Source: Tuberibacillus calidus DSM 17572 (GTDB lineage: Bacteria; Bacillota; Bacilli; Bacillales; Sporolactobacillaceae). Taken from it: DNA of 64,000 nucleotides. Shown piece after piece: positions 7,406 to 49,541 of the stretch. Each line of letters starts with the position of its first letter. The stretch's first letter is position 1. The position numbers and the translations under genes were made by a program. The notes beneath the pieces were generated by a model that was not told where the DNA came from, made no database searches, and saw only the letters and a list, made by a program, of their open reading frames with translations. Where the stretch lies: assembly GCF_000430685.1 (NCBI RefSeq), contig NZ_AUMM01000004.1, positions 62,001 through 126,000 of the forward strand. The letters run 5' to 3'.

Positions 7406-7588
7406 GGGGTCAGTCCCCCATTTGTTTAAAGTGTGAAAGTAAAAATTACGTATTTTTTGGTGAATATTGTGGGTAAATTGTTTGTGCGTCCCAATTATTC
7501 CCAATATATAACATAAAATGGATGATTTTACGGCACTTATCCACATTATCCACTTTTTCGCTTTAAAGCGGTGGGGGACTGACCCCCC
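7406..7588. mobile_element. MITE/REP-like inverted-repeat element, copy 1
   Basis: A 183 bp element with ends GGGGTCAGTCCCCC (7406-7419) and GGGGGACTGACCCCCC (7573-7588). The terminal arms extend inward imperfectly (TTTAAAGTG and AAAGTAAAAA on the left; CCACTTT and CTTTAAAG on the right). Inside, adjacent 9-mers TTATCCACA (7537-7545) and TTATCCACT (7546-7554) match the DnaA box, with the weaker inverted TGTGGGTAA at 7469-7477. It has no ORF of note. It ends exactly one base before the pbpG stop codon. Confidence 0.8.
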
Positions 7589-9661
7589 CTACCATGGCAG
7601 TAGGTTTTTGAGGCGGTTGAGGAGGTCGTCGGTTGGGCCATGGTCTTTTTCTCCAGGAACGTATCGGCGGCCTTTGTGTTTGTCACAGTATTCGGTAGGT
7701 TCGGTTCCCTCCAGATAATAGGTAAGGCGGGCGTTGGGGCAGGCATCGGTGGCCAGCTTCCCCGTGTCTGGGTCAACCCAGACTTTGACGACTCCGTCCG
7801 GCGCTTTAAAGCTGTTTTTTGGCTTTCCAGCCAAAGCTTCCTCCATAAAATTTGCCCAAATTTTTTTTGAGTAGGTCGCATCCGGATACGTTTTGATCGA
7901 TGCGTGATCCTTATAGCCGACCCACACAGCCGTTGTCAATTGTGGCGTAAAACCGACCATCCAGCTGTCGGTATCGGTCGACCCGGTTTTAGCCGCTACC
8001 TTATGGCTTAACAAATTCCGAACGCTGTAACCCGTCACTTTCGTATAATCATTGAGTTTCGGATCAAAAATGCCGGTCATCAATTGCGACAAAACAAAGG
8101 ATGTCGCGGGATCCAGAACTTTTTCCTTTTTAGGTTGCCATTCATAGATGGTATTTCCGCTTTTGTCCACGACTTTTGTAATAAAGTGCGGTGTGACGCG
8201 CGTCCCCAAATTCGCGATTGTGCTGTAAGCGCGCGCCATCTCTAACACGCTCACTTCTTTTGTCCCAAGTGCCAGCGATGGAATGGGTGACAAGGGGCTT
8301 GTGATGCCCATTTTCCGGGCCGCATCAACTAATTTATCCATGCCAATGGCAAGGTGCGTTTTGACGGCATAAATGTTGTCTGATAACGCGAGCGCCTGCA
8401 TGAGTGTAATCGGCCCATCTGCGTAATACCCGCCAAAGTTTTCCGGTGAATATTTCCCCCTCCCATCATCATAACGGAAGGTTGTCGGTTCACTCGTTAA
8501 AAGTGTCGAGGGGGTAAAGCCATTTTTTAAAGCGGCATAATATAAAAATGGTTTAAAACTTGACCCCGGCTGGCGCTTGGCACTGGTCGCCATGTTATAG
8601 GCATCTTTTTGGTAATCTCGGCCGCCAACGAGGGCTTTGACGGCTCCAGTTTTTGGATCCATTGCGACTAAGGCGGCTTGTATCGTTGAATCGGGGTTAA
8701 TCACATGCTTTACCCAGAATTCCGCTTTTTTTTGCAAATCTAAGTCAAGTGTCGTATAAATTTTTAAGCCGCTGGTGGCAATCGTTTTTTCATCCATATG
8801 GAGCCGGTCCCGCAATTCTTTTTGCACCATATCTTCAAAATAAGGTGCTTTGCGCGGGGGCGACTCATGATTTGTTAAAAGATGTAGCGGGGTATGGTAG
8901 GCTTGGACTGCTTCCTTTTTTGAAATGTAATGATCTTTGGCCATTTCGTTTAAAATGAGGCGCTGGCGCTTTTTGGCATTATCAAAATTTTCATCGGGGG
9001 CATAATAGGTCGGTCCTTTCGGAATGCCAGCCAAAAGACTCGCTTCAGAAAGCGTTAAGTCTTTTGCTTCTTTTCCAAAATAATAGCGGGAGGCGGCCTC
9101 GACCCCGTAAGCCCCGTTGCCGTAATAAATCGTATTAAGATACGCTTCTAAAATCTCTTTTTTTGAATAATGCATTTCAAGGCGCATGGCATAGAATACT
9201 TCTAAAAATTTACGCGTCCATGTTTTGTCATTGTAAAGATATAAATTTCGGGCGAGCTGCATGGTAATGGTACTAGCTCCTTGAGCTTTGGAAAAGGATG
9301 ACAAGTCGGCAACAGCTGACCCTAAAATGCGACGCATATCAAAGCCATTGTGGGTGAAAAAACGTTTATCTTCAATCGCGACCGTTGCTTTAATTAAAGG
9401 CTTGGAAATGTCATCGATTTTTACCCAAAAGCGATTTTGACTTTGATGTTCCGCTTCGGCGAAAACTTTTCCTTTCGCCGTATAAAAAATGGTAGTCTCC
9501 GGCACTTTAATGGGCGGTGGGCCGGCAATCTTGGCATAAGCCCATAGGCCGAAAAAACAAGCAAAACATAAGGCTAGAAAGCCAATCATGATGCGCAGGG
9601 ACCATTTTAGAACGCGTCTTGTGTTATGCAAATTATGTCCTGTTGCTGGTTCCACAAACAT
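7589..9661 (-). CDS. pbpG: class A penicillin-binding protein (PbpG/PBP2d-like)
   Basis: A 690-residue bifunctional peptidoglycan synthase. One N-terminal membrane anchor (about 22-45) precedes a GT51 glycosyltransferase domain (EDKRFFTHNGFD, GASTITMQLARNLYL, about 95-260) and a transpeptidase domain with SSFK (about 365), SDN (in LSDNIYA) and KTGS (about 558). Length and locus (ywhD, speE, speB neighbours) match B. subtilis pbpG, a forespore-expressed PBP needed with PBP2c for spore peptidoglycan. The ATG at 9661 has AGAGGGG very close; GTG at 9655 has better spacing (8 bases). The promoter region holds a Spo0A box. Repeat elements abut both sides. Confidence 0.9.
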   Translation of the reverse strand: MFVEPATGHNLHNTRRVLKWSLRIMIGFLALCFACFFGLWAYAKIAGPPPIKVPETTIFYTAKGKVFAEAEHQSQNRFWVKIDDISKPLIKATVAIEDKRFFTHNGFDMRRILGSAVADLSSFSKAQGASTITMQLARNLYLYNDKTWTRKFLEVFYAMRLEMHYSKKEILEAYLNTIYYGNGAYGVEAASRYYFGKEAKDLTLSEASLLAGIPKGPTYYAPDENFDNAKKRQRLILNEMAKDHYISKKEAVQAYHTPLHLLTNHESPPRKAPYFEDMVQKELRDRLHMDEKTIATSGLKIYTTLDLDLQKKAEFWVKHVINPDSTIQAALVAMDPKTGAVKALVGGRDYQKDAYNMATSAKRQPGSSFKPFLYYAALKNGFTPSTLLTSEPTTFRYDDGRGKYSPENFGGYYADGPITLMQALALSDNIYAVKTHLAIGMDKLVDAARKMGITSPLSPIPSLALGTKEVSVLEMARAYSTIANLGTRVTPHFITKVVDKSGNTIYEWQPKKEKVLDPATSFVLSQLMTGIFDPKLNDYTKVTGYSVRNLLSHKVAAKTGSTDTDSWMVGFTPQLTTAVWVGYKDHASIKTYPDATYSKKIWANFMEEALAGKPKNSFKAPDGVVKVWVDPDTGKLATDACPNARLTYYLEGTEPTEYCDKHKGRRYVPGEKDHGPTDDLLNRLKNLLPW

Positions 9662-9699
9662 GCCCCTCTCTAATGCTGATATATCAAGCAGTATGGGAA

Positions 9700-9709
9700 T
9701 TTTGTCGAA
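9700..9709. promoter_or_regulatory. Spo0A box upstream of pbpG
   Basis: TTTTGTCGAA at 9700-9709 is a perfect match to the extended Spo0A box (core TGTCGAA). On the pbpG strand it lies between a GTTTAA (about 9712-9717) and CATACT (about 9688-9693) that resemble a forespore-sigma promoter. Confidence 0.55.
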
Positions 9710-9726
9710 AAGTTAAACATGGATGA

Positions 9727-9909
9727 GGGTCAGTCCCCCGCCCCTTTAAAGTGATAAAGTAAAAAATGCCCTTAATTTTGTGGATATTGTGCATAACTTA
9801 GCCTTTATTTTCTATAATATGGTACTCAATCCTAAATATAGTTAGAATATGGCGTGGTTATCCACATTATCCACTTTAACACTTTAGCGAAGTGGGGGAC
9901 TGACCCCCC
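9727..9909. mobile_element. MITE/REP-like inverted-repeat element, copy 2
   Basis: A 183 bp element in the same orientation as copy 1, with ends GGGTCAGTCCCCC (9727-9739) and GGGGGACTGACCCCCC (9894-9909). Subterminal TTTAAAGTG and AAAGTAAAAA are conserved. Internally it holds two inverted pairs of adjacent DnaA-box-like 9-mers: TGTGGATAT (9779-9787) with TGTGCATAA (9788-9796), and TTATCCACA (9858-9866) with TTATCCACT (9867-9875). No ORF. Confidence 0.8.
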
Positions 9910-11813: not shown

Positions 11814-11987
11814 GGGGGGTCAGTCCCCCATTTCATTAAAGTATTAAAGCAAAAAAACGATACTTTAATAAGTTTTAATGTTGTATTGTTCGTAATTAGG
11901 CGCTTGATATAGCTTGAATATAGAGTATCTTCCTTAATCATTCGGAAAACCCACTTCAATACTTTAGTGCAGTGGGGGACTGACCCC
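11814..11987. mobile_element. MITE/REP-like inverted-repeat element, copy 3 (degenerate)
   Basis: A 174 bp relative of copies 1 and 2 with ends GGGGGGTCAGTCCCCC (11814-11829) and GGGGGACTGACCCC (11974-11987). Subterminal ATTAAAGTATTAAAGC and ACTTTAGTGCAGTGG are recognisable. The internal DnaA-box-like 9-mers have decayed (for example AAACCCACT at the right). It begins one base after the speB stop codon. Confidence 0.75.
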
Positions 11988-46257: not shown

Positions 46258-47118
46258 ATGGCGATGACGATACACGGAGCCCTGATGTGGGCTTCTTCTT
46301 TTTTAAGGGAACATCACCGAGATGAAAATGGCGGCGAATGGCTTTTGCGCCACCGACTAGGCCTCACTCGGGCTCAGCTTTTGGCTGCCTTCAGTGAACC
46401 GCTTACCGACAGTGATTGGGATTGGTTTCAAGCACAAGTCAAGCGCTTATCCGAAGGGGTGCCGGTGCAACATATCCTCGGGTTTGAGGAATTTTACGGA
46501 CGCCGTTTTGAAGTGAATGAACACGTCCTCATCCCGCGTCCGGAAACGGAAGAACTGGTCCAGGAGATCTTGCAATGGAAGAGGCTGGTCTTTAAGGACC
46601 AACCCGTCCGCTATGTCGATGTCGGTACGGGCAGCGGGGCGATTGCCGTCACGTTAAAATTGGAAGATCCAGAAAGCCAGGTGTTTGCCGTTGATCTCTC
46701 CGAAAAGGCTCTTGAGGTGGCCGCTCGGAATGCGAACCGGCTTGGCGCGGATGTCGTTTTTCAAAAAGGCGATCTCTTAACACCTTTTATCGGCCAAGCA
46801 ACCTTTGATATCGTCGTCTCAAATCCCCCATATATCCCGACCGAAGACATCCACACGCTTGACGATGTCGTAAAACACCATGAACCCCATCTCGCCTTGG
46901 ACGGCGGCCCGGATGGATTAGTCATGTATCGGCGGCTCTGTCGGGATCTTCCGAAGGTGCTCGCCTCGCCCGGCATTGTCGGATTTGAAGTTGGTGACGG
47001 TCAAGCCGAAGCCGTCCGCACGCTTTTGGCTGCAGCCTTTCCGAACAAGGCGAACGTGTACGTCAAAAGGGATATTAGCAATAAAGAGCGGATGTGCTTT
47101 GCTGTTACATACAGCTAA
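46258..47118 (+). CDS. prmC: release factor glutamine methyltransferase PrmC
   Basis: The 286-residue SAM-dependent methyltransferase modifies the GGQ glutamine of release factors. It has the N-terminal helical domain, VQHILGFEEFYGRRFEVNE (about 69-87), PRPETEELV, the SAM motif VDVGTGSGAIAVTL (about 119-132) and the catalytic NPPY (VSNPPYIPTED, about 188). The ribosome-binding site GGAGGG lies within the end of prfA, indicating translational coupling. Confidence 0.95.
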   Translation: MAMTIHGALMWASSFLREHHRDENGGEWLLRHRLGLTRAQLLAAFSEPLTDSDWDWFQAQVKRLSEGVPVQHILGFEEFYGRRFEVNEHVLIPRPETEELVQEILQWKRLVFKDQPVRYVDVGTGSGAIAVTLKLEDPESQVFAVDLSEKALEVAARNANRLGADVVFQKGDLLTPFIGQATFDIVVSNPPYIPTEDIHTLDDVVKHHEPHLALDGGPDGLVMYRRLCRDLPKVLASPGIVGFEVGDGQAEAVRTLLAAAFPNKANVYVKRDISNKERMCFAVTYS

Positions 47119-47265
47119 AGAGGCGCTATTTGGGGGGCGTCCCTTCGCTATAGGCCACGGTGCGACACGCCGATTCGAAGTAGGGGATTGCACCGTCAAC
47201 GATTTTAGTGATGCGACTTTTGATAGTTACGAGATTAATAAATTCCTAATTTTTCATGTTTGAAG

Positions 47266-47316
47266 TCCCGCCCTTCTGTCCATAATGGCGGATAGAGCGA
47301 TTTAAAAAGGGCGGGA
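47266..47316 (+). promoter_or_regulatory. hairpin covering the spoIIR ribosome-binding site
   Basis: TCCCGCCCTT (47266-47275) and AAGGGCGGGA (47307-47316) are perfect 10 bp arms. The right arm contains the only ribosome-binding site (GGGAG) for the ATG at 47322, so a transcript including both arms would have its start masked. A promoter between the arms, or opening of the stem, would be needed for translation. Confidence 0.6.
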
Positions 47317-47321
47317 GAACC

Positions 47322-47966
47322 ATGAAACAGAAAGTCATTTTGAGCACACTGCTATCATTATTTATTCTTATGATTTTCATGGAAGTCACACAGAATCTAT
47401 CAAAAGCCGAAAACCATGCCGATAAAATTCCTGATGATGCGATTCGCTTGCGGATTTTAGCCAACAGTAATTCTGCGAGCGACCAAGCGGTCAAAAGAAA
47501 AATACGGGATGCGGTCAATGCCAATGTGGAACAATGGGTCGGGGAACTGCGCTCTGTCGACCAAGCGAAACGCGTCATTCGTTCCCACCTTGATGACCTC
47601 CGGGCGATCGTGGCACGAGAACTGAAAGCGATGGGGATTAACGAACCTTTTACGGTAAAACTCGGAAAAGCCGATTTTCCCACAAAAATGTACGGCGGTT
47701 ATGTTTATCCAGCCGGAAAATATGAAGCGCTCGTTATTACTTTGGGCGAAGGGAAGGGCGCCAATTGGTGGTGTGTCTTATTCCCTCCACTCTGTTTTCT
47801 AGATTTTGATAACGGGGATGCCGTAAAACCGGATGCCCACGGCGAACCGGCCAAACCACATCACGTGGAAGCGTCCCAAAAACAAAACGATGACGTAAAA
47901 GTCCGATTTTTTCTCGTTGATTTATTCGAGGGCATTGTGAAATTTTTTAAGAGTCTAGTGGACTAG
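47322..47966 (+). CDS. spoIIR: stage II sporulation protein SpoIIR
   Basis: The 214-residue forespore-made signalling protein is secreted and triggers SpoIIGA to process pro-sigma-E in the mother cell. A hydrophobic N-terminal segment (about 5-22) is followed by the SpoIIR core IPDDAIRLRILANSNSASDQ, VKRKIRDAVN, the Y-x-GG-Y/V-YPAGKYEALVITLGEGKG motif and NWWCVLFPPLCFLDF. The C-terminal 50 residues are charged and variable. The start ATG lies in a masked region. Confidence 0.94.
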   Translation: MKQKVILSTLLSLFILMIFMEVTQNLSKAENHADKIPDDAIRLRILANSNSASDQAVKRKIRDAVNANVEQWVGELRSVDQAKRVIRSHLDDLRAIVARELKAMGINEPFTVKLGKADFPTKMYGGYVYPAGKYEALVITLGEGKGANWWCVLFPPLCFLDFDNGDAVKPDAHGEPAKPHHVEASQKQNDDVKVRFFLVDLFEGIVKFFKSLVD

Positions 47967-48028
47967 AAAACTTCTATTTTCCAACTCCCCTTCATAGATT
48001 GGTAGTAAAGATGGGAGGAGGAAATAGA

Positions 48029-48460
48029 ATGAACATTATTCAGGCCGAAGCTGAAGATCTGTTCAAAATAAAAGATTTTGCGAAAAAAGTGGGTGTGGAC
48101 TGGCCCGACATCGACGACGCCACCCGCTTTTTTATACTGAATAAAGGACAAATGGCAGCTAGCTTGGGGTTTACACTCATTGGCGACTGTGCGGTATTAA
48201 GGGCGCTGATTATTGATCCGGAACAGTGCGGATTAGGTGAAGCGATGCATTTATTACAAATGGTCTGTCAGAAAGCGCAGGAGCTTGGCGCAAAAGCGGT
48301 TTACTTAGCGACGACTGTTCCTGCCTATATTTTCCAGTTAACTGGTTTCACTAAAATAGAACCAAAAGACCTTCCGGAAGCTTTGCGGAACCACCCGCCT
48401 TTTTCTAAACAGGCCGAAAAGGGACATGCTACAATGATGATGAAATACTTGAAAGAATAA
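48029..48460 (+). CDS. GNAT-family N-acetyltransferase (YwlB-like)
   Basis: A 143-residue GNAT protein with the acetyl-CoA motif region (LRALIIDPEQCGLGEAMHLL, about 60-79) and a C-terminal Y-x-T/F-x-L-TGF strand (IFQLTGFTKIEPKDLPEALR), like GNATs that resemble N-acetylglutamate synthase-type enzymes. The ATG at 48029 follows GGAGGAGG. Its place between spoIIR and ywlC matches ywlB in B. subtilis. The substrate is unknown. Confidence 0.78.
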   Translation: MNIIQAEAEDLFKIKDFAKKVGVDWPDIDDATRFFILNKGQMAASLGFTLIGDCAVLRALIIDPEQCGLGEAMHLLQMVCQKAQELGAKAVYLATTVPAYIFQLTGFTKIEPKDLPEALRNHPPFSKQAEKGHATMMMKYLKE

Positions 48461-48488
48461 AACTGGCAAGGCTAAAGTAGGTGAAAAG

Positions 48489-49541
48489 GTGTTAACAAAA
48501 ATTTGGAGGGTTGATCCAACCGCGGGGAACCTTGAGGAAAACGCGGGGATTCAAGAAGCAGCTACCTACATCCGGGATGGGGAGGTGATTGCTTTTCCGA
48601 CCGAAACGGTTTACGGCTTGGGAGCTAACGCCCTCTCGGATAATGCAGTAAAAAAAATTTATGAAGCAAAAGGTCGCCCGAGCGATAATCCGCTCATCGT
48701 CCATATTTCGGACTTTCAGCAAGCCGAACGCGTCGCCCGTTCCATTCCGGACGCTGCGGAAAAATTGATGAAGGCTTTCTGGCCAGGTCCCCTTACGGTC
48801 ATTGTTCCGGCAGCGGATGCTGTCGCGAAAACCGTGACGGCTGGCCTTAAGACAGTTGGTTTACGCATGCCTAAACACCCAGTCGCCCGCGCCTTGATAT
48901 CGGCTGCAGGTGTCCCGATAGCGGCACCGTCCGCCAATTTGTCCGGAAAGCCAAGCCCTACCGAAGCTTCACACGTCTACGAAGACATGAATGGCCGCAT
49001 TGCCGGCATATTAGATGGCGGCCCAGCCGGTGTCGGAGTTGAATCAACGGTCGTCGACACCACGCAAGACCTCGTGACGATCCTCCGTCCCGGCGGCATT
49101 ACAAGGGAACAACTCGAAGCGGTTTTGGGAAAAGTCGCTTCGGACCCCGCTTTAAAAGATAAGAAAGCTCAGCCAAAAGCCCCCGGCATGAAATACCGGC
49201 ACTATTCGCCAAAAGCGCCAGTCGAACTCGTCTCAGGCGGCCTGCAGGAACTTAAACAAGCCGTCGCGCGCGCTAAAGAAACTGGTCTTACCGTTGGGGT
49301 GCTGACGACAACGGAAAACGCCAACGTCTTTAAAAATTTGGCGGATGTCATCAGTGTCGCCGGCACGCGCGCGGATCTCGCGACAGTGGCGCAAGGGCTT
49401 TTCCATGCTTTGCGCCGCTTCGATCATTACGACCTGGATATCATTTTCAGCGAAACTTTCCCCGCAGAAGGCATTGGGGAAGCGATCATGAATCGTTTAA
49501 ACAAGGCAGCCGGCAGCTCAAAAAATGATGGAATGGAGTAG
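48489..49541 (+). CDS. ywlC: L-threonylcarbamoyladenylate synthase (SUA5 type)
   Basis: The 350-residue enzyme makes threonylcarbamoyl-AMP for the universal t6A tRNA modification. The YrdC/TsaC domain (about 20-205) shows FPTETVYGLGANA, KGRPSDNPLIVHI and PSANLSGKPSPT. A linker with PGMKYRHYSPKAP (about 232) leads to the C-terminal SUA5 domain. The start is GTG at 48489 with AGGTG at 6 bases. Named by homology and position to B. subtilis ywlC (tsaC role). Confidence 0.93.
   Translation: MLTKIWRVDPTAGNLEENAGIQEAATYIRDGEVIAFPTETVYGLGANALSDNAVKKIYEAKGRPSDNPLIVHISDFQQAERVARSIPDAAEKLMKAFWPGPLTVIVPAADAVAKTVTAGLKTVGLRMPKHPVARALISAAGVPIAAPSANLSGKPSPTEASHVYEDMNGRIAGILDGGPAGVGVESTVVDTTQDLVTILRPGGITREQLEAVLGKVASDPALKDKKAQPKAPGMKYRHYSPKAPVELVSGGLQELKQAVARAKETGLTVGVLTTTENANVFKNLADVISVAGTRADLATVAQGLFHALRRFDHYDLDIIFSETFPAEGIGEAIMNRLNKAAGSSKNDGME

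Follow-up and report, generated by a model that had tools for sequence, protein, structure and literature searches.

Are the DnaA-box-like 9-mers in the inverted repeats around pbpG kept as DnaA-binding sites, or do they only form the stem of a long hairpin? DnaA starts replication of the chromosome; its box clusters along the chromosome determine how much free DnaA there is and contribute to replication timing, and we know of no account in the literature of how new clusters originate and move. The window analysed here spans 64,000 nucleotides (62001-126000) on contig C3 of a draft genome of 3.24 Mb. A preliminary description of it had noted three copies of a repeat and had read the first two as carrying inverted pairs of DnaA boxes.

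The repeats belong to a family of inverted palindromic elements

The draft genome was searched for elements ending in GGGGTCAGTCCCC. The search revealed ~16 loci, mostly inverted pairs of fixed length, in size classes of 106 bp (n=4), 172 bp (n=3), 181-182 bp (n=3) and 95 bp (n=1); some loci were longer composite arrays. The 181-182-bp class comprises element A, which was detectable by its ends alone, independently of the boxes, together with elements B (copy 1) and C (copy 2). All three lie within 19 kb and share one orientation, in numbers too small for a test of insertion bias. Copy 3 (element D) belongs to the 172-bp class with the elements at C1:144834 and C17:9974. This copy had been described as having lost its boxes, but it is a member of a separate class in which both sister elements are likewise box-less, so a loss is not demonstrated. 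The elements and box positions, in window coordinates unless a contig is given, are as follows.

C3:53039-53220, outside the window and 16 kb away: element A, 182 bp
7406..7586, + strand: element B (copy 1), 181 bp, REPIN/TIR-type inverted repeat with inverted palindromic GGGGTCAGTCCCC ends, fold z -6.0, between convergent ywhD and pbpG
7459..7467, - strand: left outer box position of B, degenerate (GGTGAATAT, as - strand ATATTCACC), aligning with a perfect TTATCCACA of A
7468..7476, - strand: left inner candidate DnaA box of B, one mismatch (TGTGGGTAA, as - strand TTACCCACA)
7537..7545, + strand: right inner candidate DnaA box of B, perfect TTATCCACA
7546..7554, + strand: right outer candidate DnaA box of B, TTATCCACT, one mismatch, abutting the inner box
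9726..9907, + strand: element C (copy 2), 182 bp, fold z -7.2, in the divergent pbpG-speE intergenic region, 65 bp to the pbpG start and 142 bp to the speE start
9779..9787, - strand: left outer candidate DnaA box of C, one mismatch (TGTGGATAT, as - strand ATATCCACA)
9788..9796, - strand: left inner candidate DnaA box of C, fitting TTATNCACA (TGTGCATAA, as - strand TTATGCACA)
9858..9866, + strand: right inner candidate DnaA box of C, perfect TTATCCACA
9867..9875, + strand: right outer candidate DnaA box of C, TTATCCACT, one mismatch
11816..11987, + strand: element D (copy 3), 172-bp class, without DnaA boxes, downstream of speB

Folding of the whole elements with DNA parameters gave hairpins with z-scores of -6.8 (A), -6.0 (B) and -7.2 (C). 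Dispersed, inverted palindromic ends that form a hairpin are characteristic of REPINs and RAYT-mobilised elements. As in REPINs, two inverted palindromes enclose a spacer of seemingly conserved length and variable sequence, a long hairpin can form in single-stranded DNA, and the palindrome is found beside RAYT genes in relatives. Neither GTAG nor GTGG was found at the foot of the palindrome in the extracted copies, which end in GGGGTCAGTCCCC, so these are not canonical GTAG REPs. They further differ from REPINs in measuring 95-182 bp or longer, in having no RAYT match in their own genome and in the DnaA boxes carried by one subfamily. Lengths were quantised (106, 172 and 181/182 bp) despite only weakly similar cores within a class, as seen for copies in the window and on C2 and C39. 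The size classes showed no consistent helical phase when calculated by hand. On two small contigs, at C39:600-7702 (L148) and C68:4663-4921 (L083), palindrome elements were densely grouped and included composite arrays with direct as well as inverted palindromes.

RAYT identity was assigned by NF047646 together with Y1_Tnp. RAYT genes in relatives were flanked by the GGGGTCAGTCCCC-family palindromes, usually with a TTTAAAG motif. Complete inverted palindrome pairs were present on both sides of the RAYT gene in G002 (L122/L205), and a palindrome was present at one or both sides in G028 (L196), G036 (L209), G007 (L220) and G027 (L203). The G002 and G028 proteins carry the NCBIfam name REP-associated tyrosine transposase. 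The association was observed in the relatives only: no RAYT was matched in the own genome, where the sole Y1 transposase, a 140-aa frame at C11, was discarded as a candidate, being IS200-type and lacking the palindrome. In G048 (L095, ~1501-1750), the start of an apparent RAYT frame adjoins a GGGGTCTGACCCC palindrome with TTTAAAG; this genome gave no intact RAYT match, and the frame may be what is left of a transposase next to its repeat.

The GGGGTCAG ends match the terminal motif GGGGWSAS of the TIRs of TIRYTs (subclass 2.1), which is the consensus of TIR repeats (PMC3733652). Like the TIRYT/TIRtron repeats (Di Nocera et al. 2013, PMC3733652), the elements also have long inverted repeats and occur as dispersed dimers. 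TIRYTs of subclass 2.1 are long and have an HTH/DnaA_C-like tail, whereas the palindrome-flanked RAYTs are short (about 190-210 aa) and the three that were scanned showed Y1_Tnp only, with no HTH or DnaA_C domain. Long HTH RAYTs were not flanked by the palindrome. A RAYT reading the boxes through a DnaA-like domain was rejected on the size of the palindrome-flanked RAYTs and the domain content of these three. The repeats are thus best described as apparent REPIN- or TIR-like mobile elements, seemingly orphaned now, and their mobility is inferred from these features.

Paired DnaA boxes are confined to one subfamily

In A, B and C, the boxes form two outward-facing tandem pairs per element. All four 9-mers that had been described for copy 2 are present (9779-9796 and 9858-9875), with 61 bases between the left and right pairs, and copy 1 indeed has the same right-hand pair (TTATCCACA at 7537-7545 and TTATCCACT at 7546-7554). 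The weaker left pair of copy 1 was described correctly as to TGTGGGTAA, which starts at 7468 rather than 7469, and its outer position is degenerate. Of the four box positions, three are occupied in element A by a perfect TTATCCACA, at offsets 54, 63 and 133, the same as in B and C. These three perfect boxes in 88 bp are the densest group of perfect boxes in the genome.

Across the genome, TTATCCACA occurs 50 times, compared to 12 for the reversed control, and 5 of the 50 lie within A, B and C. Four boxes (≤1 mismatch) in 110 bp are reached nowhere in the window except in copies 1 and 2; the maximum in 40 shuffles was 2-3. The elements therefore hold several near-consensus TTATNCACA boxes per ~100 bp, above chance, as DnaA-box clusters (DBCs) do. 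The 3.24-Mb genome contains just three exact copies of the 17-mer TTATCCACATTATCCAC, each in an element of the 181-182-bp class. Paired boxes were not found in family copies of other size classes, and two long elements contain one single one-mismatch 9-mer each. Box pair and palindrome did not occur together in any of 396 other genomes of the order, and the genome_contigs scan, whose collection may omit the own or very near genomes, gave no match elsewhere. The best reading is that the box-bearing subfamily is private to this genome among the genomes searched.

The elements lie in a presumed origin-proximal region

The gene order of the window (ywdK, ywfO, ywgA, ywhD, pbpG, speE, speB ... rpoE, pyrG, fbaA, murAB, glpX, rho, prfA, prmC, spoIIR, ywlC, ywlG, glyA, upp, atp genes; names without a family match were assigned by us) presumably parallels the left arm of the B. 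subtilis chromosome. Because of this synteny, A, B and C would occupy an origin-proximal position on the left arm, which backs the earlier placement of the region near the origin.

Other DnaA-box clusters in the own genome were found at dnaA and dnaA-dnaN (C36), tsaD/gcp-ydiF (C17), upstream of yqeG (C46), upstream of yydA/rlmH (C50) and on C15, with gene names assigned from translations. The eight regions most strongly bound by DnaA in B. subtilis include counterparts of the C36, C17, C46 and C50 clusters (PMC4447404). Abutting tandem boxes with a 9-bp pitch, as in A-C, were also present at C17 and C15. The C15 cluster (L143, C15:30201-30366) includes two tandem pairs of abutting boxes, lies near a polysaccharide-deacetylase gene and is, to our knowledge, not among the B. 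subtilis clusters. In G028 (L112, ~1264-1540), beside tsaD/gcp, a family element is located inside an apparent gcp DnaA-box cluster. Ten box-like 9-mers lie ≤250 bp upstream of the element, and the arrangement may reflect insertion preference or capture.

B. subtilis has DBCs at ywcI/vpr, gcp/ydiF, ywlC, yqeG/sda, yydA and trmE. A-C resemble them in having several boxes per ~100 bp, in being intergenic and in their position on the origin-proximal arm, as judged here from gene order. The B. subtilis DBCs contain 4-11 boxes, compared to 3-4 predicted boxes per element here. Unlike these clusters, A-C lie within a mobile repeat present in three copies, and their loci do not number among the strongest sites of B. 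subtilis. Upstream of ywlC, where B. subtilis has a DnaA-bound cluster, this genome shows none, with one box-like 9-mer (47277) in window positions 47000-49000, and the ywcI/vpr locus was not located in this genome. The groups of boxes are also similar to datA/DARS of E. coli, a member of a different phylum, in being intergenic and outside the origin. IHF-dependent hydrolysis and nucleotide exchange are features of datA/DARS that we do not claim for A-C, and the datA-like role (DnaA-ATP hydrolysis) raised in the preliminary description is unsupported.

We also looked at the pbpG-speE region of relatives. No box cluster was found there in six family members or in five more distant genomes. Palindromes near pbpG-speE were seen in two of these 11 relatives (L152 and L172), in neither case between the two genes by the positions shown. 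The positional conservation of DBCs was thus not found at pbpG-speE among relatives, indicating that there is no conserved requirement for a cluster at that locus. That pbpG-speE was already a DnaA site before the insertion was rejected, the orthologous regions being cluster-free.

Box sequence rather than stem pairing is conserved

To compare the integrity of the 9-mers with that of other positions, a test set beforehand, A, B and C were aligned. Invariant columns made up 27/36 of the box positions (75%) and 16/79 of the other interior positions (Fisher P = 2.8e-8), a test whose chief weakness is its depth of three copies. In the 61-column loop, 9/61 columns were invariant (15%), near the 8.6% expected from composition, and its length was kept at 60-61 bp. 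The boxes are conserved islands in a scrambled core. Each of the three elements retains a different subset of intact boxes; in B, one box is perfect and the other three positions are weaker.

These data bear on whether the 9-mers are only the stem of a long hairpin, with a resemblance to DnaA boxes due to chance or shared ancestry. Each of A, B and C does form a long hairpin (z -6.0 to -7.2), with the inner boxes paired to each other. However, no compensatory changes were found in the box arms across A, B and C, in a family whose lengths are quantised (106, 172 and 182 bp), and the left outer box of A is perfect though its pairing partner is lost. Folded alone, the core (37-152) gave z-scores of -1.4 (A), 0.1 (B) and -3.3 (C) against shuffles, those of A and B being no better than shuffles, and other size classes form hairpins without the 9-mers. 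Boxes varying freely with compensation had been named in advance as the outcome that would count against DnaA binding; the opposite was seen. Since substitutions in one arm are unmatched in the opposite arm, the boxes appear to be more than mere stem and the 9-mers to be kept as 9-mers. We consider a stem-only origin, already weakened by the missing covariation, quite improbable. Decay of a functionless cluster is very improbable in our judgement. It would have been captured from the chromosome between two palindromes and copied twice, which the G028 element within an apparent gcp cluster with ten box-like 9-mers (L112) makes feasible, and the loss of one box in B and another in A is in keeping with decay. 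In the absence of selection, however, boxes and core would decay alike, so the unequal three-way identity of loop (15%) and boxes (75%) counts against it. Together, these results suggest that selection has retained the boxes as double-stranded DnaA sites while the remaining core diverged.

The main rival is that the boxes serve the mobile element itself, with bound DnaA linking replication to the movement or upkeep of the element. In its favour are the location of the boxes inside the element at fixed offsets and the activity of Y1 transposases on single-stranded DNA at forks. Tn5/IS50 offers a parallel, since its transposition is influenced by DnaA bound to its ends; a DnaA site is present in the Tn5 ends (PMC3347997). 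RAYT subclass 2.1 combines a DnaA-like C-terminal domain with GGGGWSAS inverted repeats (PMC6006769); the authors of that study state that the inverted repeats of the subclass do not resemble DnaA boxes. On the other hand, paired boxes occur in only one subfamily of the ~16 loci, showing that movement of the family needs no boxes. The short palindrome-flanked RAYTs, three of which lack the HTH and DnaA_C domains on scanning, also argue against it, and with no RAYT match in the genome ongoing selection for movement is unlikely. Overall, we regard this as an unlikely explanation.

Proposed role of the box-bearing elements

We favour, as the probable explanation, RAYT-type mobile repeats of which one subfamily carries selected DnaA boxes acting as an extra origin-proximal cluster. 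The preliminary description thus appears right in reading a likely DnaA-binding cluster; it missed the RAYT-type mobile nature of the repeats and the separate class of copy 3. The elements would be non-autonomous and of REPIN/TIR type, each folding into a single long hairpin from its two inverted GGGGTCAGTCCCC palindromes. In related Bacillota, elements of this kind would be moved by a RAYT transposase, an enzyme apparently no longer encoded here. A DnaA-box cluster may have been captured between such palindromes, as the G028 locus would illustrate. The core around the box pairs of the subfamily diverges, whereas selection would preserve the pairs themselves as double-stranded DnaA sites.

DnaA binding by A, B and C is likely, judging by the conservation of their boxes and the uncompensated changes in the box arms. 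Acting jointly, the three elements would add a further DnaA-binding cluster to the left arm, in its presumed origin-proximal part, and DnaA held there would leave less free DnaA near the origin. The boxes of C may also affect the speE and pbpG promoters. Such titration or local regulation is plausible. In B. subtilis, a strong early-initiation phenotype required the joint removal of six clusters (PMC5295017), which makes a measurable effect of three small clusters uncertain and a modest effect the expected one.

Our searches of the open-access literature found no REPIN or MITE described as containing DnaA boxes; the repeat described here is of RAYT type and carries apparently conserved DnaA box pairs. 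Its boxes bear on the DnaA-like domain of one RAYT subclass (PMC6006769). A mobile repeat with conserved box pairs at fixed offsets would offer a concrete route by which clusters spread, the copy-and-paste of a ready-made cluster. More tentatively, and with considerable doubt, the repeat may have become a set of dispersed, selected DnaA clusters replacing lost left-arm clusters such as the one upstream of ywlC. If so, a mobile element can create and relocate sites that control replication initiation.
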